Translations under genes and position numbers: made by a program | Part shown: positions 4,762-32,615 of the stretch, in pieces | Position numbering within the stretch: position 1 is the first letter of the stretch | How the letters are laid out: each line of letters starts with the position of its first letter | Notes under the pieces: model-generated | What the model was told of the DNA's origin: nothing | Database searches by the model: none | The model's input: the letters and a program-made list of their open reading frames with translations, nothing else | Source: a virus | Virus record (IMG/VR): IMGVR_UViG_3300007960_000095 | Coordinates: 1-32,615 of that record | Length of the DNA stretch: 32,615 bases | Strand: one strand, 5' to 3'

Positions 4762-5138
4762 ACGACAATGAGTACCTGTTTAATTGTGCCGATTGCACCC
4801 CATACGACGGCAAGATTCCCCGTTTTATCACTAACAGTTGTACCACCGTCAACAGATAAATCTAGCGCGCCAACTCCTGCGAATATTAACGCATCTCCGA
4901 TACGCTTTACTGTACGATAGTTAGTTGTTCCGTTATTCGTCCATGATGTTGCTGTATTGCTTGAACTATAATAACGTGGTGTTGTGCCGTCAGTCGCCAT
5001 TAATTCTATTTGTGTAGAATCGGAGATGTCAATTCCTAAACCGTAAGGCAATTCAGGGATATAATCAGTCGTCGGACTAACATCCGTCCATGTATCTGTT
5101 GCTGTAAATGTAGTTACTTTGTAGAGAACACGCGCCAT
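4758..5138 (-). CDS. Probable minor virion protein, 126 aa
   Basis: Starts MARVLYKVTTFTATDTW. Thr/Ser/Gly-rich and beta-type in composition, with no membrane segment. It sits between the large tail protein and the fibre, overlapping each by one to four bases, so it is tightly coupled to tail assembly. Specific function not recognised. Confidence 0.6.
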   Translation of the reverse strand: MARVLYKVTTFTATDTWTDVSPTTDYIPELPYGLGIDISDSTQIELMATDGTTPRYYSSSNTATSWTNNGTTNYRTVKRIGDALIFAGVGALDLSVDGGTTVSDKTGNLAVVWGAIGTIKQVLIVV

Positions 5139-8100
5139 TATTGTAGTCCTACGATGCTAATATTATCAACATATCCGAATGTATTGGCAGTGGTAAACCC
5201 TGAACCGCCAACGACGGATATACGGCATCGGATACGCTTCACATTCGATTGATTAAAGAATCTATCTACAGTTTGCCATGATAATTTAGCTGCATCATTA
5301 GCAGCTGTGGCATATGACGCAAGTAGATTATCCGATACATCATATAAAAGTATACTGCGTGATAAAACATTACTGACGGGTTGTGTATAGTAATATTGAA
5401 ATGATACCTGTTTGACTATAATTTCACTTGTCAGGGTTATATCTACATTTACATTTAATCCCCTAAATACGCCCGCTTGAACAAACGCCGCTTTAATACT
5501 AGGCGCTGTATTACCAAATGATGCATCAGGAAAAACTATAGGATCAATCGCTGTACGCCCTGAATCGATACTGGTAGTAATCTCGTAATCTACCGTTGAA
5601 GCTGTTGTCATATCTAGGTCATATTGAACACTAGATAATGATGATGATGATGATGTAACGTATAATGTTGTATTGCCGTCACCTGTAATCATGTAGTTAG
5701 GTGCGCCAAGTCCAGCAGGGCTATTTGTAAGGCGTGTAAATAACCCGTTAGCAACCGTTGCGATATATACGCCGTATTCACTTGTGCTATTAGGTGCCGT
5801 TACGACTTGATTCACCCCTGTAATATATAACCCAATATCGCTATTATCATTGTCAGTATCAGTTATTGCATCACCAACGCGAGTCGCGCTTGTCCAACTA
5901 TCACCACCATCTAATGACCGTCCGAACAATACACCTGTTTGATCGTGCCATGCAGATACAACTAGCGTCGTTGTCGTACTACTACATGCAATCCTAGCAG
6001 ATGTTAATGTGCTTGAATCATTCATCGTGTAGCTTGTGAGTAATTCAGCTTCAAAGTTTGACGCTTTTATATCATATAACCGATAGATAGATAATGTAGT
6101 ACTATCGGCACTCACTACATAAATAGATAGCGGTTCACTGAGATCGTAGCCTGAAGTGAAAAATGCACTATTGTAATCATAACAAACATCACAAACATGC
6201 CCTAAAAATAAATCATCTAAGCTCGTCCATATCGGGCTACTATCTGTAAAATTTTGAGTAATTGCTAGGTTGCCATTCGTATTGTTGGCAATAGCAACGT
6301 TTGGCAATATGCTAAAATCATCATTTGAAGGTGTATAATCGATTCCAAGTTCAGTTACCCAACCGCCGGAAACGACCGTCGCGCCGCTGCCAATAATCCA
6401 CTCGTCAGCTTGTTGTCCAAAAGTTTCCTCTTTAAGCGTGACTTGTATACTTAATGTCTGATTCTCATTATCCCAATTACGATTTACACGTTGAGCTATA
6501 AAGCGTGTGTTATTCCAACCGTTACCACTCGGATCGTAATCAGAAGATAAATTAAGTCGAAACCATATCATATATACAGGATCGATGATATTGATATTCC
6601 GATTGAGATTAATGCTGATTGTATCAGGACTTTGTAAATCAGCTGCAAGATGCCCTACGGTTTCCAGTACTGTCGTTTTGCCGTTAGTAGCATCTACAGT
6701 AAAATCAGGTAGTACAGTTTCACCTGCACCCTGTGACCATCGCTTTACACCATACCACGCTTTAACGCCACTCGCTCCTCCACCACTATAAGCAAACGCG
6801 CCCGCCCGAATATCGGAATAAGGCACTAATACACTGCGATTATATTCTAATGGTGGTAGAATGTCATCGGCACTAAATGTCATACCGATTGAGATAGCGT
6901 TACGAGTTGCATTGTCTAGATAGTTTGGGTTGCGTCTCAATACGAGTGTACCATCAGATGCGCTCCCGACGTTTCCTAATATCGCACTCGCTGCGACATC
7001 TAAACCACTTGCAATCGTTTTGCCGTTATACTCATAGCTATATTTACGTGGTGTTGTAATTGCACCTGTATCAATATCGTGCATACTAAATAGATTTTGA
7101 CATTGCCAACGGTTATACTGTAATGCGCCCTGAGGATTACTTATATCGCTGTTGACTTCCGTCCAATTGCTAGGGTTAGATACTTCGGTAATCAATTGAG
7201 CCGGAATAAATACCCGTTGAAGGTACATATATGGAGATACCGCCGTTATACTTGCTTGCCCGTAATCCCCATTATGACTATATTGATATTCAGTTACATA
7301 ACCAACAAATATATCAACATCTACGCCCGTTGTCAGATTACTACCATCATAGATACTATCATGCTGTAAATGCACATAAGCGCCGGGGTAGATTGTGTTA
7401 TCAATATTCGTACCCGTAATTGCGAATTGAATTGAACGTCCGTTTAAATCCTGAGTATCACTATTGATCGTTACAGTATACGATTCGTTTAAATCGGTAT
7501 AGTTCGTGCCGTCCGATACGAATAGATAGGTATATGCGGTATGCGTTTTGCCGTTGCTATCGGTTACGGTTAAACTGATAATGTGTTGTCCTTGCGTAGC
7601 ACTAACTTCAACTACACTATCGCTTGTTGCATAACCCGCTTCAAGGCTTACACCTGTAGGAAGTGTCCACAAATAGCTACTAATCGTTTTACTACCGAAC
7701 ACGATTGATGTATTTGTCCCTAATCGTGGCAGTGTAAAAGTCGCACTATCTCCAACTGAGATTCTAGCTGATTGACTCGTTCCAGCGTTTGCAATCGGTG
7801 GTGTATCTTCGTTTTCATCAGTATAAGCAACGTCCCATTTTTTACGGAATGAACCATTGACGATCCGGCTATAATCACCCCATAGTGGACGGTCTTTATA
7901 GATGGTAATGGTATCACTTGCGGTTATAGCTCGTTTAATGGTGGATACATAGCCACTATCACCAATTGATACAGGACTAATATATAACGTTTGCCCTGAT
8001 GTTGCTTTACGTAGTGTGCCATGAGCTACAATATCACCATTTGAATCTCGAATAATAAACCGTTGCCCAACTTCCGTATTGCTAATATCACCCGTGACGG

Positions 8101-8254
8101 TTAATGACGATGCTGGAGTTTCCGACGGAGTGTTATCAATCGTAGCAGTTGCAACAATATCAGGATTGAATATATTGAGTCGTACATTATCAATATAGTG
8201 ATGTGTACCGCGTATAAGATTTAAATCATTGGTACTGAGTGCCGATTGTGTCAT
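5138..8254 (-). CDS. Large tail-tip/baseplate protein with PKD-like domain, 1038 aa
   Basis: Residues about 150-250 hold a PKD-like domain: PPIANAGTSQ opening, YLWTLPTGVSLEAGYATSD core, and HIISLTVTDSNGKTHTAYTYL closing strands. The middle part resembles tail-tip hub proteins in composition. Residues about 640-900 contain BNR-like pieces, including GRSLDGGDSWTSATRV. The C-terminal 150 residues form a beta-rich module with a galactose-binding flavour. PKD and BNR-like modules in tail proteins usually mediate carbohydrate contact. The start is supported by AGGA just upstream, immediately downstream of a terminator-like hairpin (8261-8298). Exact role is inferred from size and position. Confidence 0.75.
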   Translation of the reverse strand: MTQSALSTNDLNLIRGTHHYIDNVRLNIFNPDIVATATIDNTPSETPASSLTVTGDISNTEVGQRFIIRDSNGDIVAHGTLRKATSGQTLYISPVSIGDSGYVSTIKRAITASDTITIYKDRPLWGDYSRIVNGSFRKKWDVAYTDENEDTPPIANAGTSQSARISVGDSATFTLPRLGTNTSIVFGSKTISSYLWTLPTGVSLEAGYATSDSVVEVSATQGQHIISLTVTDSNGKTHTAYTYLFVSDGTNYTDLNESYTVTINSDTQDLNGRSIQFAITGTNIDNTIYPGAYVHLQHDSIYDGSNLTTGVDVDIFVGYVTEYQYSHNGDYGQASITAVSPYMYLQRVFIPAQLITEVSNPSNWTEVNSDISNPQGALQYNRWQCQNLFSMHDIDTGAITTPRKYSYEYNGKTIASGLDVAASAILGNVGSASDGTLVLRRNPNYLDNATRNAISIGMTFSADDILPPLEYNRSVLVPYSDIRAGAFAYSGGGASGVKAWYGVKRWSQGAGETVLPDFTVDATNGKTTVLETVGHLAADLQSPDTISINLNRNINIIDPVYMIWFRLNLSSDYDPSGNGWNNTRFIAQRVNRNWDNENQTLSIQVTLKEETFGQQADEWIIGSGATVVSGGWVTELGIDYTPSNDDFSILPNVAIANNTNGNLAITQNFTDSSPIWTSLDDLFLGHVCDVCYDYNSAFFTSGYDLSEPLSIYVVSADSTTLSIYRLYDIKASNFEAELLTSYTMNDSSTLTSARIACSSTTTTLVVSAWHDQTGVLFGRSLDGGDSWTSATRVGDAITDTDNDNSDIGLYITGVNQVVTAPNSTSEYGVYIATVANGLFTRLTNSPAGLGAPNYMITGDGNTTLYVTSSSSSLSSVQYDLDMTTASTVDYEITTSIDSGRTAIDPIVFPDASFGNTAPSIKAAFVQAGVFRGLNVNVDITLTSEIIVKQVSFQYYYTQPVSNVLSRSILLYDVSDNLLASYATAANDAAKLSWQTVDRFFNQSNVKRIRCRISVVGGSGFTTANTFGYVDNISIVGLQ

Positions 8255-8260
8255 AGTGTC

Positions 8261-8298
8261 CTAAAAGCAAAAGCCCCGCGATAGGAGTAACGGGGCTT
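8261..8298 (-). terminator. Terminator-like hairpin just before the tail-tip gene
   Basis: On the minus strand AAGCCCCG (8298-8291) pairs with CGGGGCTT (8278-8271) around a 12-base loop, followed by TTGCTTTT. It ends only about seven bases before the start codon of the 1038-aa gene, so it works as an attenuator or leader terminator rather than simply closing a gene. Confidence 0.75.
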
Positions 8299-8337: not shown

Positions 8338-8365
8338 AGTTTAACCGATTTTTGATATATGTCAA
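8338..8365 (-). promoter_or_regulatory. Candidate promoter for the tail-tip operon
   Basis: TTGACA (8365-8360) and TAAACT (8343-8338), with a 16-base spacer on the minus strand. It lies between the terminator of the small gene at 8395 and the hairpin at 8261-8298. The -10 is weak (four of six consensus positions). Confidence 0.4.
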
Positions 8366-8392
8366 TAAAAATAAAAAAGCCCTTTCGGGCTT
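8366..8392 (-). terminator. Terminator of the 107-aa gene
   Basis: On the minus strand AGCCC-GAAA-GGGCT (8391-8378) is followed by a T-rich tract, TTTTTATTTTTATTG. It starts three bases after the stop codon of the small gene at 8395-8718. Confidence 0.9.
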
Positions 8393-8718: not shown

Positions 8719-8761
8719 GATATTCTCTCCAATATCGAATTATTAATTTGTAATTCCTTAC

Positions 8762-8804
8762 TATGCTTACAGTATACAATATATATTATATACTGTCAAG
8801 CATA
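8762..8804 (-). promoter_or_regulatory. Promoter/operator P2 (shared dyad element, copy 2)
   Basis: On the minus strand TTGACA (8799-8794) and TATACT (8776-8771) are 17 bases apart. The promoter lies inside a long inverted repeat: TATGCTTGACAGTATA (8804-8789) against TATACTGTAAGCATA (8776-8762). The two arms are complementary except for one extra base. A palindrome covering -35, -10 and the start site is typical of a repressor operator. Confidence 0.85.
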
Positions 8805-8842
8805 TTTTACAATATTTTATTTTTTCTCATATTTCAATATAG

Positions 8843-8878
8843 TAATAAAAAAAGCCCCAGTCAAAGATGACTAGGGAC
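8843..8878 (-). terminator. Terminator after the 140-aa tail gene
   Basis: On the minus strand CCCTAGTCA-TCTT-TGACTGGGG (8876-8855) pairs over nine positions, including one G-U that would be a C-A mismatch on the other strand. It is followed by CTTTTTTT. It closes the upstream tail genes before P2. A smaller perfect repeat, GCCATG/CATGGC (8881-8898), lies between it and the stop codon. Confidence 0.85.
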
Positions 8879-12396: not shown

Positions 12397-12421
12397 CAAA
12401 TAAAAAAGCCCTTGCGGGCTA
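12397..12421 (-). terminator. Terminator of the 78-aa gene
   Basis: On the minus strand AGCCC-GCAA-GGGCT (12420-12407) is followed by TTTTTTATTTG. The stop codon (12421-12419) overlaps the stem. The tape measure start lies only about 20 bases beyond. Confidence 0.9.
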
Positions 12422-12655: not shown

Positions 12656-12685
12656 TTTATTATCTCCGTTTGATTAATTACTTAA

Positions 12686-12729
12686 CTATACTTACAGTAT
12701 ACAATATATATTATATAATTTCAAGCGTA
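12686..12729 (-). promoter_or_regulatory. Promoter/operator P3 (shared dyad element, copy 3)
   Basis: On the minus strand TTGAAA (12724-12719) and TATACT (12701-12696), spacer 17 bases. The spacer core TATAATATATATTG and downstream TATACTGTAAGTATAG match P2 closely. The upstream half-site is degraded compared with P2. Confidence 0.8.
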
Positions 12730-12763
12730 TATTATATAATTAATATTTCTCTAATGTTGTGTT

Positions 12764-17622: not shown

Positions 17623-19998
17623 CTATACGCCGATGTTGTACAGGACGGAAACACTATCATTGTCTTGACCAACGAAGGCAAGACGCAATGTGCTTGTAAG
17701 TGTCCAAACGTCCAATGCTGCACGGTATTCAAGCGTTGTGGTAACACGACGACGATACCCTACATACCATGACGGACGGTGTACAATCGCAAGACGACCA
17801 CGCTCAACGACATTACCGCCGTTTGTGATTTTACCGTCGCTGTCTGCGAGTGCGATTTCATTTGATACGAATACCGGAATGCCGTCAATAATACCGATTT
17901 GACCGGTCATATTAGTGGCGCGTGTGCCTGCCTTATCCATTGTGATAAATTCATCCATATTCAGGAGTTTAGCTTCAACTTCTGGATGAACGATGATTGC
18001 GAGGTTAGATACCGATTGCTTGCTACGATCAAGTTTAAAGCGAACGTTACGAATCGCTGCAAGTGTTGGGTTCGTACCACTCGCGTCTACCGCGTTTGTG
18101 GTTGCGGTTACAATCGCATTTTTGAGCAAGCCGTTAAACACTAGATATTTAGCAGTTGCAGCAGGAGTACCACCGTCATCGTTAATATTCAATGATGTTG
18201 CGGTATCACCATTAGCAAGGACGTTATCAATCGCGTCTAACATTGCACGCTCAGCTTGGGCACGGTACATTGGAATCGCACCACTAACTGAATCTTCTGC
18301 TAATTCGCCACTGATGAATGTCAATAATCCGAGTTTAGCAGCCGTCATAGTGACATTGGTAGTTGCGATTTTGCTATCTGGAATAGGTGAAGCGGTCAAG
18401 TCAAGTGTATTTTGGTCAGCTGTTTCAGCTACTTTGTAGACGGTAGGGTCACTTGATTCAATCGGCAAAATGTACGGATTCGTCGGCATATCAATGACGT
18501 TGAACAATGGCAAAATTACATTGTCACGACGCGCTTTACGCCAAATTTCATCACGCCAAGCGGTTGGTACATGTTCGTCACCGTAACCCGCTTGAGTGCT
18601 GTACATAACTTCATCGGCTTTAATTGCATTAACCGATTTAATCACGCCGGGAGTCAATTCGATTTCGCCATTATTATGAGCTTTGGTAGCTTTATCAGCA
18701 AATTCACGATAGAATTTATCATCCATCTCGAATGGTAAGCTCGCACTCTTACGGGTTAAGTGCTGTTGAAGATCAGCTGCAAAGCTAAAATCTTCAGGAG
18801 TCCAATTTGAGAACTTACTAGAGATTTCAATACGTGGAGCTGAATGGCTACCTGAACCAGCTTTAGATTTACCGCGTACTTTTTCAAAAGCGCCGTTAAA
18901 CGCCTTATCAAGCTGTGCATCGGTCTTAGCTTTAGCTTGTAGACGTGAATCGATGATAGCAGGTAATTTATCGATGAGTGCCGTCAAGGCTTTTGCTTGA
19001 ACGTCCTCTTCATCGGTAGCTTGCATTTTTCCAGCTTCACTAACGAGTTCGACTTCAATTTCTTGCATATCAGCTTCGCTCATATTGTCCATTTCAGCTT
19101 TGACGCGTTCGACGACCATATTCACGATTTGTGCAATTTCATCTTCTGTCAACATTTTGACATTTTTTTCTGTAGGCATGGTTTGAGATTCCTCATTATT
19201 AGAGTGATTAATTGAATTACGTTTAACCCCGTCGGGTAAATCCTCAGAATCGTTTGTTGGAATCTCAGGCACTTTATGCCCATCGGCATCTTCTACCCCT
19301 ATATCATCAAACGAGTCTAATATTGATTTCGTCGAATATATTTTAGTGCGGTTTGGATCGGCAGGTGTATGCGTTGCGCTACCTTCAAAGATTGCCCACT
19401 TTTTGATATGACCATCTTCATCTATCTCTGCCGTGTTTGGGTTCGCACCACTAGAGAAGGCTATTTTCCCCTCATTCACCCAACCTTTAATAAACTCTAC
19501 CGCTTTTTGATAGTCGTCAATCGATACTGGCGCTTGTTTATCTTGATACCACTGATTGACGAATTTTTCATATTGATCTCGCTCACGTATAAGCGCCTCT
19601 ACCCATAACCCGTGATTATCAACTTCAGCTTTGACAAATTCACCAATAGGAATATCACGAAGTCGTTTATCAAGCCCGTGATGGAATAATAACGGTAAAC
19701 CAACGATATTATGAGGAGTGGATAAATCCGTATCTTGAGTAAAATATTCGTTGTCAAGATCGCGATTATCAGTATCTGTGAAGTTAACTAGATACCCGCC
19801 GATGCGATTATCTCCCAGTGATTTAATATTGCTACCATAGCAATATTTTAATGATTTTGTATTCTCATTTTCCATAATTGCAACCATATGATTATTTGCC
19901 GATTGTCGTGTATCGTGACATCCACCTTTGATTAAGTCGCCGGTTTCGATGTTTTGTATACAATAGAGATTTTCACGTTTAATAATGTGATAGGGCAT
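17623..19998 (-). CDS. Fused prohead protease and major capsid protein, 791 aa
   Basis: Residues 1-45 hold a small YCIQNIETGD...GCHDTRQSAN domain. About 60-225 is an HK97-type prohead serine protease: LFHHG (His106/107), FSSGA (Ser182/183) and the EGSATHTPADP block. Residues about 230-273 are linker. About 275-365 is a helical scaffold (delta) region. About 390-791 is the HK97-fold capsid, with a TAWRDEIWRKARRDNV helix and a VERGRLAIVHRPSWYVG end. Fusions let the protease cut the delta domain and mature the head. A possible internal ATG at 19179 (MPTEKNVK), with GAGGAA about 11 bases upstream, could give a separate capsid protein. Confidence 0.9.
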   Translation of the reverse strand: MPYHIIKRENLYCIQNIETGDLIKGGCHDTRQSANNHMVAIMENENTKSLKYCYGSNIKSLGDNRIGGYLVNFTDTDNRDLDNEYFTQDTDLSTPHNIVGLPLLFHHGLDKRLRDIPIGEFVKAEVDNHGLWVEALIRERDQYEKFVNQWYQDKQAPVSIDDYQKAVEFIKGWVNEGKIAFSSGANPNTAEIDEDGHIKKWAIFEGSATHTPADPNRTKIYSTKSILDSFDDIGVEDADGHKVPEIPTNDSEDLPDGVKRNSINHSNNEESQTMPTEKNVKMLTEDEIAQIVNMVVERVKAEMDNMSEADMQEIEVELVSEAGKMQATDEEDVQAKALTALIDKLPAIIDSRLQAKAKTDAQLDKAFNGAFEKVRGKSKAGSGSHSAPRIEISSKFSNWTPEDFSFAADLQQHLTRKSASLPFEMDDKFYREFADKATKAHNNGEIELTPGVIKSVNAIKADEVMYSTQAGYGDEHVPTAWRDEIWRKARRDNVILPLFNVIDMPTNPYILPIESSDPTVYKVAETADQNTLDLTASPIPDSKIATTNVTMTAAKLGLLTFISGELAEDSVSGAIPMYRAQAERAMLDAIDNVLANGDTATSLNINDDGGTPAATAKYLVFNGLLKNAIVTATTNAVDASGTNPTLAAIRNVRFKLDRSKQSVSNLAIIVHPEVEAKLLNMDEFITMDKAGTRATNMTGQIGIIDGIPVFVSNEIALADSDGKITNGGNVVERGRLAIVHRPSWYVGYRRRVTTTLEYRAALDVWTLTSTLRLAFVGQDNDSVSVLYNIGV

Positions 19999-20008
19999 AT
20001 TTTGACCT

Positions 20009-20044
20009 TAAAACACAAAAGCCCTGCGGGTTCAGGGCTTTGTG
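20009..20044 (-). terminator. Terminator of the 196-aa gene
   Basis: On the minus strand AAAGCCCTG (20041-20033) pairs with CAGGGCTTT (20026-20018) and is followed by TGTGTTTT. It lies between the end of the 196-aa gene and the start of the protease-capsid fusion, so it would cut late transcription without read-through. Confidence 0.85.
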
Positions 20045-20114
20045 CTAACGGAGAGTTTTGTATATGACTACAATCTAATTGTAGCACAATTCGTTATTCT
20101 GTCAAACGATTCTA

Positions 20115-20705: not shown

Positions 20706-20731
20706 GATATTATCTCCGTTTGATTAATTAA

Positions 20732-20775
20732 CTATGATTACAGTATGCAGAATATATTATAGTATGTCAAGCATA
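20732..20775 (-). promoter_or_regulatory. Promoter/operator P4 (shared dyad element, copy 4)
   Basis: On the minus strand TTGACA (20770-20765) and CATACT (20747-20742), spacer 17 bases. GCTTGACA, a TATAATATAT spacer core and ATACTGTAATCATAG are shared with P1-P3. Confidence 0.8.
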
Positions 20776-20828
20776 TTCTGTAACTTGTTTTGTATTTTGA
20801 TACTCTCTAATCTAGTGTTCTACTTGTT

Positions 20829-25258: not shown

Positions 25259-25953
25259 TTACCCGTTTCCTTGAATCATAGCTTCGAAAAATTCATTGAC
25301 GAAAAATTCATAGACATCTGTTGAAGTGGTTAAAATATACTGTTCGCATCTCGGTTGTGCTGATAGGTTTGCGCTTCCGGTAATGGTTACAGTTTGACCA
25401 TGTTTATTTTTTAATGCAATGCACTTGACATGGTTTTTAAACGTCAAGAATATTTGTTTATGCTTTTGAATACCTTCAATTAATGTGTTAGCGACAGCTG
25501 ACTCGCGTCTAGTAAGTAGGGATCGGTAACGATTGCTAATTTAGTTATATTATGATTATCAAGTAATTCAATAATAGATAATACATGATTTCGATTACTA
25601 GCCCACGTACTAATAGAAGCGGTTATGTTTGTATTACCTAACATCTCGACTAAATGAGGGATGAATGTCCCAAAATCAAAAGCGTCTACACTCCTACCGA
25701 CTATTTTTTCAGCTCCAGCGCCATTCCCAACAATATATAAATCTGTGTCGGGTGATGGTAATTTTGTAATTAATTTTGTTAATGCCTCTTTTTTCATGCC
25801 ATTAATAAATAATCGTTTTGCTTCTTTGCGTTCATGTAATTTCGGTCTTTTCAAATTATCTGAGGAATGAAGTGTAGTAGTATCGTCAAGTAAATCAGAT
25901 AATTGTGAATCACCAATATTGAAGTCATCGTCAAGTAAATCAGATAAGCTCAT
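25259..25953 (-). pseudogene. Phospholipase-D-like nuclease, split by a frameshift
   Basis: The 5' part (from ATG 25953, MSLSDLLDDD, to the stop at 25480) ends with ITKLAIVTDPYLL, then leaves the family pattern. The continuation TRRESAVANTLIEGI, then HVKCIALKNKHGQ and GSANLSAQPRCEQY lies in another frame and ends at 25259. H-x-K followed by GSAN is the PLD (HKD) motif. Frames must join near 25515-25530, where CCC occurs; one lost base explains it. No standard slippery heptamer is there. The start at 25953 overlaps the upstream stop as ATGA. The 5' part has two LSDLLDD repeats. Confidence 0.75.
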
Positions 25954-26150
25954 AATTCTACTGCCAATATAATCCCGTAATCCTGATAATAACAATCTAC
26001 TAGATGCTGAACGACTTCATGCCGTATTTGAATATCCTGTTTGTCGTTTCGTTTGATTGCATAACATAACTGATTTTGATATTCGATGATCGTTTGTAAC
26101 GATGCAATTTGTGACTCTAGTTTGTCGTTAACTTTTATCTGTCGTGTCAT
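25950..26150 (-). CDS. Small unknown helical protein, 66 aa
   Basis: Starts MTRQIKVNDKLESQIASLQ. Probably coiled coil in its first half. AGG lies before the ATG. It overlaps the upstream membrane gene by 23 bases and the PLD-like gene by four. It may be a lysis or packaging accessory protein, on position only. Confidence 0.55.
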   Translation of the reverse strand: MTRQIKVNDKLESQIASLQTIIEYQNQLCYAIKRNDKQDIQIRHEVVQHLVDCYYQDYGIILAVEL

Positions 26151-26355
26151 GGTTGCCTGATTCTATATGTGTAGAATTTTTAAGCTCGTGTATCTCTTGA
26201 CGAAGTTCTTTTATCTCATGTAGCAGGTAGAAAAATTCTTGCTTATTGTCGATGTCGTGCGATTCTTCACTGTCACCAGTTGCAGATACAATACGAAAGA
26301 AAAATGCTAAACCAATGAAAAATAGAATCACACGATTATTGAGTAATTCATCCAT
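26128..26355 (-). CDS. Small membrane protein with coiled-coil tail (holin candidate), 75 aa
   Basis: The chosen ATG at 26355 gives MDELLNNRV, then a hydrophobic segment ILFFIGLAFFFRIV (residues about 9-22), then a helix of heptads FFYLLHEIKELRQEIHELK. One membrane segment plus coiled coil fits small holin or phage membrane-anchor proteins. A GTG at 26361 is also possible. The ribosome binding site is weak. It overlaps the preceding membrane gene. Confidence 0.5.
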   Translation of the reverse strand: MDELLNNRVILFFIGLAFFFRIVSATGDSEESHDIDNKQEFFYLLHEIKELRQEIHELKNSTHIESGNHDTTDKS

Positions 26356-26854
26356 CTGCACGCAATTCGATTATCTGTTCTCTAATTTGTTTGATTTCTT
26401 TATTCGCTTGTTTCAACAAATACCGATTGACGACTCCAATAATCACAAGGTAGGGTATCGTCAATAAATAAAGTGCTGCTAATAATCCCGTCATTTGTAT
26501 GTCGCCTTGAATCGTTTCGATTGCGACAAATACACCATAAATAATAATCGGTAAACTGCCAACGGCATAATGAATAGGTAGACGATCTCGTAGGAAACAA
26601 TAGACACTCATCAAATAAGCAAACGCAATAATATAATAGGCATTGATATTTAACGCGTCTGCTAATTCTGCTACGCCTCCCGACGTTCCTCGCTCAATTA
26701 AGACGCTATTAATCCCAGCGAATAGCATATAAAAAACGCCTAGTCCAAACTGGGATTGTAAAGGACGCACGTATGAAATGAGCTTGTTGTTGATGGTCTT
26801 AACATTAACCATGTTATCAAATTGGATTATCAATTTCGACTCGAGTAGTTTCAT
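26348..26854 (-). CDS. Multi-pass membrane protein (holin candidate), 168 aa
   Basis: At least three to four hydrophobic segments are visible: FGLGVFYMLFAGINSVLI, YYIIAFAYLMSVYCFL, AVGSLPIIIYGVFVAIE, and LLAALYLLTIPYLVIIGVV. The C-terminus is a charged helix (KQANKEIKQIREQIIEL). The late promoter lies just upstream. An ATG at 26887 would sit inside the loop of the leader hairpin without a ribosome binding site, so the ATG at 26854 (MKLLESK) is preferred, though its site is also weak. Position at the head of the late operon suits a holin; not proven. Confidence 0.55.
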   Translation of the reverse strand: MKLLESKLIIQFDNMVNVKTINNKLISYVRPLQSQFGLGVFYMLFAGINSVLIERGTSGGVAELADALNINAYYIIAFAYLMSVYCFLRDRLPIHYAVGSLPIIIYGVFVAIETIQGDIQMTGLLAALYLLTIPYLVIIGVVNRYLLKQANKEIKQIREQIIELRADG

Positions 26855-26874: not shown

Positions 26875-26898
26875 AAAAACCCGCCATAAAAGCGGGTT
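26875..26898 (-). terminator. Leader terminator-like hairpin in the late operon
   Basis: On the minus strand AACCCGC (26898-26892) pairs with GCGGGTT (26884-26878), loop TTTTATG, followed by TTTC. It lies about 40-60 bases after the late promoter. The ATG in the loop is the longer start of the membrane gene. Its U tract is short, so it is a modest terminator. Confidence 0.6.
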
Positions 26899-26941
26899 CA
26901 AAAACGGAGTACTTGCGTCATATTGGTTGTTCTGTACTTTC

Positions 26942-26969
26942 ATTTTAGCATAGATTATCTATCTGTCAA
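26942..26969 (-). promoter_or_regulatory. Late operon promoter
   Basis: TTGACA (26969-26964) and TAAAAT (26947-26942), 16-base spacer, on the minus strand. It is the only strong promoter I see between the right-end genes and the terminase/capsid genes, so it probably drives the whole late operon. Its leader contains the hairpin at 26875-26898. Confidence 0.75.
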
Positions 26970-27015: not shown

Positions 27016-27534
27016 CTATTCATGATTAACGTCTATCCGTTTGATAATCGACTCATGCTTTGCCGTTTCATTTTCTGGTATCACTGGAATATCTCGCAGA
27101 TTTGCACGTTTTCGCCGTTCAATCTTGGTTAACAATTCCGCATAGAATACTACCATGTCATATCGATTTACATTTAAAATTTTACAGCATTGAGATAGCA
27201 TTTCACGTTCCTCTTTTTGTGATGCATCGCTATGCCCGAATCTATATTTATTTTTCAGGTAGAGTAGTAAAAGATACAATTGATAATCGAAGCTCGAAAA
27301 TTCCAAGTTGTGGATTCTATTCTGATAAACACTATCGTCAAAGTCGTAATCTTTGTTGTACATAATTTTATTAATCACCATATCTTCTACAGGTCTATAA
27401 ACAGTCGTAACAAGATCATCTTTTTTATCACATATTGGTATAAACTGCCCGTGTTGGCGCGTAAATATCCGTATATGTTTCCGGTACGTTCGTCGTCTTA
27501 CAAAATCAGCACTATATCGATTTGCAATTTTCAT
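27016..27534 (-). CDS. Unknown basic protein, 172 aa
   Basis: The ATG at 27534 (MKIANRYSADFVRRRT) is chosen because GGGGAT lies just upstream, after the metallophosphatase stop; a longer form from 27639 would overlap that gene. The N-terminus is basic (RRRTYRKHIRIF). The middle has QLYLLLLYLKNKY and the end is an Arg/Lys-rich helix (ERRKRANLRD). It could bind nucleic acid. Not recognised. Confidence 0.5.
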   Translation of the reverse strand: MKIANRYSADFVRRRTYRKHIRIFTRQHGQFIPICDKKDDLVTTVYRPVEDMVINKIMYNKDYDFDDSVYQNRIHNLEFSSFDYQLYLLLLYLKNKYRFGHSDASQKEEREMLSQCCKILNVNRYDMVVFYAELLTKIERRKRANLRDIPVIPENETAKHESIIKRIDVNHE

Positions 27535-27562
27535 ATCCCCAAAATATCCCAATATATCACAA

Positions 27563-28663
27563 TTAAATGACTCCTGTGAATGATAATGGCACGGAATAAC
27601 GCGTCGTGCCGTCAATTGCATAGATATGCGTTTCATCACGATAATACATGAAATTAGTGAATTGTACCGCGTCGGTGTCTGTATCTAATATTGCCATGCC
27701 TAACGATTGCGTCCAGTTTGATGTATATTTACCGCGATTAGTTTCGTAATGTGGTACTAAATCGCATCGACAACCGACTACCATCGCGTGACTTGTAAAT
27801 CGAATGGCTTTATGAGTATATCCGTCAGGTCTATGCGTATGCCCTGCGACGTGATGAACGGTGTGATCTTTGGTTGTCATGGATTTAGCGACGTTTTGAC
27901 CTGCACCACCATCGTGCCGTATAAATAGACTGTCTAACAAAAGCTCTTGCGTATTGCCTAAATAATGCACACGACCTTCATGCTTAATCAAATCGGTAAA
28001 TAGTCGTAGTAACGTTTTTGGAGTCCTACCTGATAATGCCATCTCATTGAATCTTAAATCGTGGTTTCCAAAGATAAATGGCATTAATGGATAATTCCCC
28101 GCTTCAATGAGCCGATCCGTGTCCTCTTTGTATGCTGATTGAATTCGCTCATAGCAGTCATCGAACGACGGAGATTGTTGTAGTTCATAGTCGGGTTCGT
28201 GACGCGATATAGTTGGGAAGTCGAATATATCACTCCCGTGAATGATTATATCTGCACCAATAGATTTAATAATTTCGGCATCGAGTGCAACCGCATCTGG
28301 ATCGTGAAACGGTATATGTTTGTCAAATGGAAAGAATATTTTTAACCATCGTTTTGATTTTTTTAGTGCTTTATAGCGTGACCAAAATCCATCGGCATTA
28401 TTGTCATTGTAAGTTAATCGTCGAATGACAACGGGTTTAATCGCTTGTTTGAATTTAGGTAATTTCGTCTCAATTGCATTAAGTTCAGGTTCTTGATTAT
28501 CACGTTGAACCCACTTACACCATTTACGATACTCCGATACACCACCACGTACACCTGATACGCTTACGTTATACCGTTGTGCAATCTGTTTATTTGTGTA
28601 TCCATCTTGACGCATCTTATAAAATTTATCAGCATTTAATCGTGGTTTTGTTGGCTTTTTCAT
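27563..28663 (-). CDS. HTH-metallophosphatase (calcineurin-like), 366 aa
   Basis: The ATG at 28663 follows CGGAGGG. Residues about 8-45 contain a helix-turn-helix (MRQDGYTNKQIAQRYNVS). The catalytic part has the metallophosphatase order: D114-x-H116 (PFDKHIPFHD), GSD (about 143-145), GNHD (199-202), IRHDGG (His250) and GHTH (274-277). Such enzymes cut phosphodiester bonds with two metals. A GNHD/GHTH enzyme joined to a DNA-binding domain suggests action on nucleic acid, perhaps on phage or host DNA or signalling nucleotides. The following gene lies 29 bases downstream. Confidence 0.85.
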   Translation of the reverse strand: MKKPTKPRLNADKFYKMRQDGYTNKQIAQRYNVSVSGVRGGVSEYRKWCKWVQRDNQEPELNAIETKLPKFKQAIKPVVIRRLTYNDNNADGFWSRYKALKKSKRWLKIFFPFDKHIPFHDPDAVALDAEIIKSIGADIIIHGSDIFDFPTISRHEPDYELQQSPSFDDCYERIQSAYKEDTDRLIEAGNYPLMPFIFGNHDLRFNEMALSGRTPKTLLRLFTDLIKHEGRVHYLGNTQELLLDSLFIRHDGGAGQNVAKSMTTKDHTVHHVAGHTHRPDGYTHKAIRFTSHAMVVGCRCDLVPHYETNRGKYTSNWTQSLGMAILDTDTDAVQFTNFMYYRDETHIYAIDGTTRYSVPLSFTGVI

Positions 28664-28689: not shown

Positions 28690-29154
28690 TTATAGCATAT
28701 TTTCTAATGATTTCATATTAGGTGTAAACCAATTCAATTTGTAATATAGCGCACGGCGTGCCGGGTGCTTGCCCTTACCTACATTATTTACATCAAATAG
28801 TTTATAAATCAGGTCGAAATGCTTGCGCGTCGTGTCCTCTGTATACCCTGATTTTAGTGCAATCTGCTTAATGCTATAGGTTGGATGTTGCTGGATCGTA
28901 TTGAATGTTGTTTGTATACGCGATGGGAGTAAATATCTATTTCTATCTGGATGTATCCAACCTAGTAAATTAAAAATACTCAATTGTAAATCGTGCCCGA
29001 TTAATAAATGCGTGTTCTTTTGTGCAAGGTCAGTCATGCAAACGCGAACGGTTACAGCCGTTACGTCGGATATATCTGCAATGCCCTGATATGTTATTAA
29101 AGGATTTTCTACAAAATAACGTAGTATTTTAGCGTGGCGTAATTTGATATACAT
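28690..29154 (-). CDS. Two-HTH DNA-binding protein A, 154 aa
   Basis: Two helix-turn-helix regions are visible: TYQGIADISDVTAVTVRVCM (about 21-41) and YSIKQIALKSGYTEDTTRKHF (about 93-113). A basic linker (GKGKHPARRALYY) follows. GGGAGGGAAAG precedes the ATG, giving a strong ribosome binding site. It is a relative of the gene at 31,717, with the same layout and the same LYxxxxWF-type C-terminal segment. It lies downstream of a terminator with no promoter of its own. Confidence 0.75.
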   Translation of the reverse strand: MYIKLRHAKILRYFVENPLITYQGIADISDVTAVTVRVCMTDLAQKNTHLLIGHDLQLSIFNLLGWIHPDRNRYLLPSRIQTTFNTIQQHPTYSIKQIALKSGYTEDTTRKHFDLIYKLFDVNNVGKGKHPARRALYYKLNWFTPNMKSLENML

Positions 29155-29226: not shown

Positions 29227-31668
29227 CTAAAACATTACGAGTTGTTGTTTCGCTTTTTCAGCTTCTTGAAGATGTCGAATCGCTGTTTTAAAATACGACT
29301 CTTTGAGTTCAATGCCGATAGCTTTGCGATTCATCCGAATTGCAGTTACTAATTCACTACCGACTCCTGCGAATGGACTGAATACGGTATCTCCCTCGTT
29401 TGACCATAAATCAATACCCTTACGAATTACATCAAGCTGCAACGGGCAGATATGTTTTTCGTCGTCGTTATCACGCGCGATCTTGTGGTTTAATACATTC
29501 GTTTGGTCAATATCAAACCATACCGGGCTTGCGTATCGTTGCCACACTGCAATTGAATAGGCGCGTTGTTGTTCTTTTTCGTCCATCGGCAAGCCGTTAT
29601 AACTGTATTCATATTGTTCACTAGACGGTGGTTTAGTGCCTATATAATCACCGATGACGCGCTTTTGTGTTACTGGCTCAATTAAGTCCTCATTGTCAAC
29701 GTCCCATTTGCGGAATGTGATGAGATAATCTGCCATGCCTTGACGCACGCCACTCGCGTCTTTTGTGAAGTTCTTATGCAACAATCCATGATTCTTAGTG
29801 CGTTGCATTTCGATAACAGGATCTTTCCAGATATTCACACGACTGTGGAATACCCACTTAGGTTTTGTCTTACGTTCAATCTGCCATTCTGCTAAATCGC
29901 GCTTATATGCTGATATACTATCATAATCGTCAATGTCGGGTTTATCCATCTCCTCGAATGCACGAATAATATCACCGGCAAAGTCCTGTAAACCCATTGC
30001 GCCGTCACGACCTTTATATAGCGGCAAGTCTTTACAATGGACTGAACACAAACGTCCTACTTTTGTTGTACGGTACATCTCACGGATGAGATATTTATAG
30101 TGTTTGAAAAATTCGTCATTGTCTGAGGAATTACCCATGTCAGCTTCAGATGCGCTATAGATATATAGATTCGCGAATGGTGGTGAATGAATACCGTAAT
30201 CAATGCTATTATCATCGATCTTCGCAATCTGTTCTACGCAATCCCCAAGATGCAATTCCCAGTTCTTGCCACTCTCGTATTGATATTCCGGCGTTTTCAG
30301 TTCCGTTTTATTTTGATCTCTAAATAGCCCGTGATTTTCCATCGCTTTAGTCATCTCCGTTTGCATTTCAATAAATTGACGTTGTTTTTTGTGAATCGCC
30401 TGTACGACGTTGCCCTCAGATTCGCTGAATATCATATAGGCGTTTACGGGTTTCTTTACTCCGAAACGATATGACCGTCGTAGTGCCTGATATGTTTTCT
30501 CAAAACTGAATGACACGCCGACGAGTATCTGATGAGTGCAATGTTGCCAATTAAGACCGAAACCCGCTATTGACGGTTTCGTGATAATTGCACGGTACTT
30601 TTGTTCAGTAAATGATTGTAACTTATTAACTTTATCTTCGCGTTTATCACTACCGTTAACTTCAATTGCAAACGAGAACGCATCTTGAAGTTCTTGAGCT
30701 TCGTCATTGGTATCGCACCAAAATATAATAGGCTCATCGTCGTCGATGGTATCTACGATGCGTTGCGCTTCTGCTACTCGTAAATCTAGCGATTCGCGTT
30801 TTAGCGCGTGTAATCCTGTACTTGATACATTAACATCAGGGAATAACATGCCTTGTTCACTCGCACGGTCAAGTGTTGCCTGTGAATATCCTACGCTACA
30901 TTCAAGCATATTCAATTCTGGTAAGTCGAAATTAGGCATATCGTATTCAGCACCTAAGTCACGTGGATGAGATATGCAAACCGCCCAAGATGTTAGCCAA
31001 CGATAAAAGTCGTCGCGCCCGTGTGACTTCAGGATGTAATTACCGGCTGCCATTGTGTCATTTTTGAACCATCTCATAATCATCTCATTAGACGGCATAA
31101 CATCCAAAAAGTCCGCGTGATTCCCTATTTCAAGAAAGTCGTTTGGCGCGGGGGTTGCTGTACATGCTAATTTATACGGTGTTTGCCGGAATGATTCTGC
31201 TAACATCTGTTTTGTCTTACCTGTAAAATTTTTCAGGATACTCGACTCATCCAACGCTACACCGTCAAATTGTGAACAATCGAACTTGTGAATACGATCA
31301 TAGTTCGTAATCACAATTGCATCAGCTGGTAATGATTGCATTTCACTTTCATCGGCAACATAGTCAATCTTAATGCCGATTTTATCAGCTTCAATGATCG
31401 TTTGTCCTGTTACGGCAAGTGGAGCTACGATAATTACGCGCCCGGCAGTATGTTGCGATACGTGACGTGCCCACTCAACTTGCATGAATGTTTTCCCGAG
31501 TCCACATTCGGCAAATATAGCTGCCTTGCCGAGTGCTATTGCCCATCGGACAATAGCATTTTGGAATTTGTATAACATCGGATGCACATCTGATTCTTGA
31601 ATCTCAAAACCAGCATATTGAGGGTTTTCATGTTTACTCTTTAAAAATTCTTTATATTGCACGTTCAT
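29227..31668 (-). CDS. Helicase-DNA methyltransferase fusion, 813 aa
   Basis: Residues 1-440 are an SF2 (SNF2-like) helicase: ECGLGKT (54-60), LDESS (139-143), TATP (170-173), QALRRSYRFG (394-403). Residues about 465-813 are an amino-methyltransferase: HSPPFANLY (494-502, catalytic SPPF) and FSPFAGVGS (763-771, AdoMet binding). The order catalytic motif before AdoMet motif is that of the beta class (N4-cytosine or N6-adenine). No nuclease motif is seen. It has its own promoter and ACGGAG site. Likely role: DNA modification or anti-restriction. Known in several phages. Confidence 0.9.
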   Translation of the reverse strand: MNVQYKEFLKSKHENPQYAGFEIQESDVHPMLYKFQNAIVRWAIALGKAAIFAECGLGKTFMQVEWARHVSQHTAGRVIIVAPLAVTGQTIIEADKIGIKIDYVADESEMQSLPADAIVITNYDRIHKFDCSQFDGVALDESSILKNFTGKTKQMLAESFRQTPYKLACTATPAPNDFLEIGNHADFLDVMPSNEMIMRWFKNDTMAAGNYILKSHGRDDFYRWLTSWAVCISHPRDLGAEYDMPNFDLPELNMLECSVGYSQATLDRASEQGMLFPDVNVSSTGLHALKRESLDLRVAEAQRIVDTIDDDEPIIFWCDTNDEAQELQDAFSFAIEVNGSDKREDKVNKLQSFTEQKYRAIITKPSIAGFGLNWQHCTHQILVGVSFSFEKTYQALRRSYRFGVKKPVNAYMIFSESEGNVVQAIHKKQRQFIEMQTEMTKAMENHGLFRDQNKTELKTPEYQYESGKNWELHLGDCVEQIAKIDDNSIDYGIHSPPFANLYIYSASEADMGNSSDNDEFFKHYKYLIREMYRTTKVGRLCSVHCKDLPLYKGRDGAMGLQDFAGDIIRAFEEMDKPDIDDYDSISAYKRDLAEWQIERKTKPKWVFHSRVNIWKDPVIEMQRTKNHGLLHKNFTKDASGVRQGMADYLITFRKWDVDNEDLIEPVTQKRVIGDYIGTKPPSSEQYEYSYNGLPMDEKEQQRAYSIAVWQRYASPVWFDIDQTNVLNHKIARDNDDEKHICPLQLDVIRKGIDLWSNEGDTVFSPFAGVGSELVTAIRMNRKAIGIELKESYFKTAIRHLQEAEKAKQQLVMF

Positions 31669-31701: not shown

Positions 31702-31730
31702 ATTATATAGATATTTTCATGAATTGTAAA
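31702..31730 (-). promoter_or_regulatory. Promoter of the helicase-methyltransferase gene
   Basis: TTTACA (31730-31725) and TATAAT (31707-31702), 17-base spacer, on the minus strand. It overlaps the 3' end of the upstream HTH gene. The leader AACAAAACGGAG is followed by the ATG at 31668. This promoter lacks the P1-P4 dyad. Confidence 0.85.
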
Positions 31731-32202
31731 GAATGAGTTTATTGAAGTCGTCGCGTAATTGGTCTACATCAAACCAACCGACTCGCTCATATAATCGTAA
31801 CCGTGTAAACAATGTACTACGCGCTTGAATATCGTAATAGCGATATAAGTTTAACATTCCTTGACGTACGGATTGCATGGAATAGCCTAACGTATCTGCT
31901 AATTGTTGATATGATGCACTAGGTGTTTGTACTAATTGTTTGACTGTGTAATATTGAATCGAATCCCATTTATAGGAATATGGAATAATTCCCAGTGGTT
32001 TGATATATCCAATATAATCGAAAAATTGCAATCGGCTAATGCGTTTATGGCACGATGGGAAGTATTCACGAATTGCAAATGATACCAACGATTTACTGCA
32101 CGATCCAATAGACTGTTCAATTTCTGAATGTGATATAAATGGATTCAGGAATATGAGTCCAAGAATCTCCTTTTGACGTGGAGTGTGTGATTTTAAAAAC
32201 AT
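31717..32202 (-). CDS. Two-HTH DNA-binding protein B, 161 aa
   Basis: Two helix-turn-helix regions: ISHSEIEQSIGSCSKSLVSF (about 23-42) and ASYQQLADTLGYSMQSVRQG (about 96-115). The layout matches protein A at 28,690: N-terminal HTH, IGYI-type linker, second HTH, and a RLRLYERVGWF ending like A's YYKLNWF. The two are probably diverged duplicates. The ribosome binding site is weak (AAGCGG). It could regulate genes of this cluster; no target is shown. Confidence 0.7.
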   Translation of the reverse strand: MFLKSHTPRQKEILGLIFLNPFISHSEIEQSIGSCSKSLVSFAIREYFPSCHKRISRLQFFDYIGYIKPLGIIPYSYKWDSIQYYTVKQLVQTPSASYQQLADTLGYSMQSVRQGMLNLYRYYDIQARSTLFTRLRLYERVGWFDVDQLRDDFNKLILYNS

Positions 32203-32213
32203 TATATAACCGC

Positions 32214-32615
32214 TTATTTATCAAAAACTTCCACAAACAACTGCCAAAATCCGAAGTTATTACGATAATTAAAAGCATCATCATATGTGTAAAATTCATC
32301 ACCATTTTTAGTTAAATAAATGATTTTACAATATATAGAAATATCTTCAATTTTAGTAATAACAAGTTTATCATCCGGATAGATATGTTCATGTGGAGGG
32401 TAGTTTATATCCGATGTGATAATATTGTATTTTGTCGCTTTAATATTGGTAGGGTTTTTATGAAAACTCCAATATATTTGAAAATCATCTTCTAAATTAG
32501 CATCAATCCAATCGTCTTCATCCCAATCGTCTTCATCCCAATCATCTTCATCCCAATCGTCTTCATCCCAATCATCTTCATCCCAATCGTCTTCATCCCA
32601 ATCATCTTCATCCCA
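32214..32615 (-). CDS. Acidic protein with DWDED repeats, 5' end outside the window
   Basis: The frame runs off the right edge. The first seven visible units are W-D-E-D-D repeats encoded by 15-base units. They lead into about 99 non-repeated residues, starting WIDANLEDDFQIYW and ending NNFGFWQLFVEVFDK, then TAA (32216-32214). The repeats are extremely acidic, like DNA mimics, but this is inference. The gene ends 12 bases before the HTH gene. Function unknown. Confidence 0.7.
   Translation of the reverse strand, partial: WDEDDWDEDDWDEDDWDEDDWDEDDWDEDDWDEDDWIDANLEDDFQIYWSFHKNPTNIKATKYNIITSDINYPPHEHIYPDDKLVITKIEDISIYCKIIYLTKNGDEFYTYDDAFNYRNNFGFWQLFVEVFDK
32511..32615. repeat. 15-bp tandem repeat (seven units) reaching the window edge
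   Basis: The plus-strand unit ATCGTCTTCATCCCA repeats seven times. One base alternates G/A in units 2-7, making a 30-bp higher-order period. It codes for the WDEDD pentapeptide on the minus strand. The sequence stops inside the array. Confidence 0.9.

Follow-up and report, generated by a model that had tools for sequence, protein, structure and literature searches.

Repeated promoter-hairpin units at the late gene blocks of a phage lineage suggest lambda-like antitermination gates

A strong promoter that is followed almost at once by a terminator-like hairpin raises the question of whether late transcription is gated by antitermination, as at pR'-tR' of lambda. This arrangement is found in the window, a 32.6-kb (32,615-nucleotide) linear viral record that is a fragment and whose late strand is the minus strand, on which the window features described here lie. 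The promoter at 26942-26969 (TTGACA-16-TAAAAT, with an extended -10, TGC) carries 11 of the 12 consensus bases, and the hairpin at 26878-26898 (AACCCGCTTTTATGGCGGGTT, that is AACCCGC-TTTTATG-GCGGGTT, with the tail TTTCAATT) has a terminator score of 9.1, which bears out the pair described in the first-pass annotation. The hairpin begins 43 nt past the -10, so the leader would be about 60 nt long. The same annotation had the hairpin overlapping the first possible start codon, but the ATG in the loop (26887) is probably unused. Instead, the first gene past the unit, g26348 (26348-26854), likely starts at ATG 26854, just past the hairpin, as does its 44% identical homologue (R42959-43504) in the related genome G001, which sits directly past that genome's own unit.

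The pair is not confined to this locus. A second promoter at 20078-20105 (TTGACA-16-TACAAT) is followed by a hairpin at 20018-20041 (AAAGCCCTGAACCCGCAGGGCTTT then TGTGTTTTAAGG, score 11.9) and by a fused protease/major capsid gene (17623-19998, start 19998). Likewise, a third promoter at 8338-8365 (TTGACA-16-TAAACT) precedes a hairpin at 8271-8298 (AAGCCCCG...CGGGGCTT then TTGCTTTTAGG), which with a score of 0.1 is the weakest in the set, and a large tail-region gene, g5138 (5138-8254), that has a 60% identical homologue in G001. All three units share an exact TTGACA and a 16-base spacer, and their promoters carry 10-11 of the 12 consensus bases. Under the rule that a promoter of at least 10/12 must be followed by a leader hairpin at a distance of 30-60 nt, three units lie on the late strand of the window and none on the opposite strand, whereas 60 dinucleotide shuffles gave 0.017 on average. 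A similar count over both strands gave 4 vs 0.1 in shuffles.

The hairpins were compared by a terminator score of published type. By this measure all 10 leader hairpins of the comparison set score at least 0 (range 0.1 to 37.6, mostly 0-15), whereas among random stretches of the late strand only 6 of 250 and 1 of 250 reach that value. A T-tract lies 3' of every leader stem, and in several of the hairpins the U-tract is short, with 4-5 T and then G. Judged by their sequence, with a hairpin and a T-tract, the leader hairpins are intrinsic-terminator-like.

Conservation in relatives provides further evidence. Near-identical contigs carry unit 1 (L002) and unit 2 (L004) unchanged. In a further contig, L003, the upstream gene is different, but the sequences match again from just ahead of the promoter, with the unit 1 promoter and leader identical. 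At greater distance, a TerL search returned a clade at 41-50% identity, including G001 (contig L016), a genome of 60 kb that is complete by a 91-base terminal repeat and syntenic with the window. Protein identities between the two are 53% for the metallophosphoesterase, 41% for g27016, 44% for g26348, 47% for TerL and 45% for the portal. A perfect TTGACA-16-TATAAT with a hairpin lies between the g27016 and g26348 homologues of G001, in the same position as unit 1. The late strand of G001 contains exactly four such 12/12 promoters, vs 0.05 in base shuffles, all at the starts of late blocks: they lead to g26348, the capsid gene, the tape-measure gene and a tRNA cluster ahead of the g5138 homologue. 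Leader hairpins begin 40-48 nt past the -10 in three of these units, and in the fourth three tRNA genes come first and then the hairpin. These tRNA genes occupy R10675-10941 (reverse-strand coordinates), between the perfect late promoter and the hairpin.

Further relatives repeat parts of this pattern. L017 has a promoter-hairpin unit before its capsid homologue. G003 (L030) and G009 (L101), each complete with a 127-base terminal repeat, have a unit upstream of the terminase genes and past a small zinc-ribbon gene; a second, looser candidate lies on the same strand of G003 as its terminase unit. No unit was seen in many other members of the TerL clade, and the strict rule gave hardly any at control loci. 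The spacing between promoter and hairpin varies little among distant relatives. Genomes that have diverged in the rest of their DNA keep this layout, and its retention suggests an on/off gate like that of lambda, which would be used several times per genome.

The likeness to known gates lies in the layout. Q-dependent lambdoid promoters also combine a sigma70 promoter, a short leader, a terminator-like hairpin and late genes beyond it. In HK97, TTGACT-17-TAAATT lies beside the antitermination gene, with a hairpin (AAAGCCCTGAGTTAATAGCTCGGGGCTTT-TTGCGTTTTAAG) 34 nt past the -10 that, together with its tail, is closely like that of unit 2, while at the annotated pR' of phi80 the terminator is ~53 nt past the -10. 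The first-pass comparison with pR'-tR' therefore holds as far as layout is concerned, given the three units of the window, the four of G001, those of G003 and G009, and the HK97 and phi80 spacing. There are also clear differences. Lambdoid phages have one Q-dependent unit and a 17-base spacer, whereas here there are 3-4 units per genome with a spacer of 16, and they start head and tail gene blocks. In addition, HK97 and phi80 have a known Q family, whereas none was found in the window or the searched relatives: PF03589 and PF06530 were absent from the window fragment, G001, G003, G009 and L017, in a search in which HK97 and phi80 were positive for PF03589. This agrees with the first-pass remark that no Q-like gene is recognised in the window, and its proposal to look for an antiterminator gene outside the window yielded neither family in the four relatives. 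As the search gave no known Q protein, the units are not filed under the lambda Q system.

Q proteins require a binding element between the -35 and -10 as well as a -10-like pause element (PMC6606751). Two of the G001 spacers are identical at 13 of 16 positions, and other pairs at 10 of 16 at most. No motif of 8-9 bases that all units share rose above background, the lists having been inflated by masked promoter bases, and among the first bases to be transcribed the pause hexamer TAnnnT is present in 2 of 7 units. Other antiterminators offer partial parallels. AlpA of Pseudomonas aeruginosa controls two operons with a promoter-terminator layout, one terminator starting 26 bp past the start site (PMC7969949), through the element GGGACG-N5-GGTA between the -35 and -10 (PMC7969949, PMC9371919). 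As in the gates proposed here, there is more than one promoter-terminator unit per factor and a weak terminator near the start (PMC7969949, PMC9371919), but what AlpA controls is a death pathway of the host together with another operon rather than phage late blocks. In the Caulobacter gene transfer agent cluster, which is under GafYZ control, one antiterminator, GafZ, enables polymerase to cross terminators inside the virion gene cluster (PMC11150451). Unlike here, GafZ has one target promoter, with a terminator past the first gene, and needs the activator GafY and IHF (PMC11150451).

Based on this evidence, it seems fairly likely that the units work as Q-like antitermination gates, 3-4 per genome. 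Host polymerase of the sigma70 type would start at the strong constitutive promoter and, with a leader of ~60 nt made, in most cases stop at the leader hairpin. Late in infection or upon induction, a phage protein would load onto polymerase at the promoter or close to it, and the loaded polymerase would then ignore both the leader hairpin and later terminators. The gate would be used three times in the window and four times in G001, restarting late transcription past inserted accessory genes. The regulator would lie outside the tested Q families, with g27016 as the first candidate.

The later terminators are part of this argument. All of those that the first-pass annotation had listed in the downstream operon exist (20041-20018, 12420-12407, 8876-8855, 8392-8377 and 8298-8271). 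However, the hairpins near 20009 and 8261 are leader hairpins, because promoter units repeat at 20105 and 8365. Of the remaining three, the strong hairpin at 12407-12420 (score 28.6) lies ~28 nt before the tape-measure gene (ATG 12379). No good promoter was found between the two, the best having 8/12 and overlapping the T-tract, so late RNA has to cross this hairpin. Another lies within the late region at 8855-8876, and a second strong one (8377-8392, score 38.5) follows a small gene at 8718-8395.

That gene belongs to a set of its own. A promoter repeat of ~74 nt occurs in three copies on the minus strand (8760-8833, 12685-12758 and 20731-20804) that are 74-80% alike, each preceding a small gene (8718-8395, 12655-12419 and 20705-20115, respectively), and two of the copies have a near-identical ribosome-site stretch. 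The small genes lie between late genes and are in this respect moron-like cassettes. A scan of viral contigs for their promoter pattern returned one near-identical contig and nothing else.

A passive attenuator, in which a constant fraction of the RNA would end at the hairpin, setting the level of the late block with no phage antiterminator, seems unlikely but is the best of the alternatives. Its appeal is that the leader U-tracts are modest, with scores mostly of 0-15 vs the 28.6 and 38.5 of the hairpins at 12420 and 8392, and that neither a Q family nor a clear operator was found. Yet such a device leaves the much stronger terminator before the tape-measure gene, which lacks a good promoter, to be crossed. 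Moreover, G001 encodes an integrase as well as CI-like regulators and looks temperate, so its lysogens would need silent late promoters, while perfect-consensus promoters without a gate would be expected to be on.

An improbable reading is that the hairpin serves at the 5' end of late mRNA, in protection from decay or in ribosome access, with termination being incidental. The AGG-type ribosome site that lies directly 3' of the hairpin in several units (TTTTAAGG, TTTTAGGA) would suit this role. However, there is a T-tract past every stem, the hairpins score as terminators, and their position matches that of terminators beside Q-controlled promoters. It is even less probable that the hairpins are ordinary ends of upstream operons that lie past a new promoter by chance. 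In the window this would be consistent with the upstream genes, which are all on the same strand as the late genes, but the narrow range of spacing between distant relatives argues against it. For at least two units of G001, those of the capsid and tape-measure genes, this reading is ruled out: the neighbouring upstream genes are on the opposite strand, and these two hairpins can therefore act only on the RNA of their own promoter.

The first-pass annotation had also named a cis-acting RNA such as put. The put RNA of HK022 is a pair of successive stem-loops in the nascent leader. Modification of polymerase by such an RNA without a protein is hardly credible here: a structured element does lie near the 5' end, as in HK022, but hairpin sequences differ between units, the terminator-like hairpin is essentially the sole one in the minimum free energy fold of each leader, the short stretch before it has almost no predicted structure and nothing comparable to put, and no Rfam match was found.

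For the antitermination gate, the protein that would load onto polymerase has several candidates. The first is g27016 (27016-27639), an ORF just upstream of unit 1 with an uncertain N-terminal start, whose 41% identical homologue holds the same position in G001. Its AlphaFold2 model is poor (pLDDT 48.5, from two sequences), although the C-terminal helices, which are better predicted, gave weak matches to helix-turn-helix and sigma region 4-like folds, with Z up to 5.4. No Q protein was among the fold matches listed, which excludes nothing. The case for g27016 is weakened by L003, where another gene lies upstream of an unchanged unit 1, and by the absence of a homologue from G003. Alternative candidates are the winged-helix paralogues g28690 (28690-29154) and g31717 (31717-32202), also on the minus strand, which are diverged helix-turn-helix proteins with 24% identity (E 1e-6). 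A further lead is provided by small zinc-ribbon genes immediately upstream of a unit in L030 (6651-6977), L101 (4109-4513) and L017 (5088-5327). In L003 the same place (1-60) shows a Cys-containing end alone, perhaps of another zinc-ribbon protein.

The nearest bacterial TerL relatives are Chloroflexota contigs, several of them from Anaerolineae. The host is thus probably a member of the Chloroflexota, a call based on the bacterial TerL relatives alone. A portal search of 400 Chloroflexota genomes gave two weak matches, and bacterial genomes scanned with a tail protein gave no match. A more specific proposal, that a Chloroflexota-associated lineage has 3-4 dispersed gates, one per late block, all answering a new antiterminator family represented by g27016, is speculative and at present somewhat doubtful. 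If the gates are real, antitermination as a form of late control would extend to a bacterial phylum with little-studied phages, and a single phage would have several separate late promoters turned on by one factor. Accessory genes could then be inserted between late blocks with control intact, and in g27016 a new antiterminator family would have a specific candidate member.

Other genes of the window also deserve mention. At 25259-25995, on the minus strand, the frame of a PLD-like nuclease appears split. An intact copy probably exists, because the sister contig L002 differs by a small indel, and at the same place L003 has a different stretch with a terminase-small-subunit-like gene. A 15-base tandem repeat coding for WDEDD repeats (32499-32615, minus strand) is cut by the contig end. 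Lastly, a helicase fused to an N4/N6 DNA methylase is encoded at 29227-31668 (minus strand); it is 68% identical in L005 and about 42-45% identical in S-CBS3 and Helicobacter prophage records.
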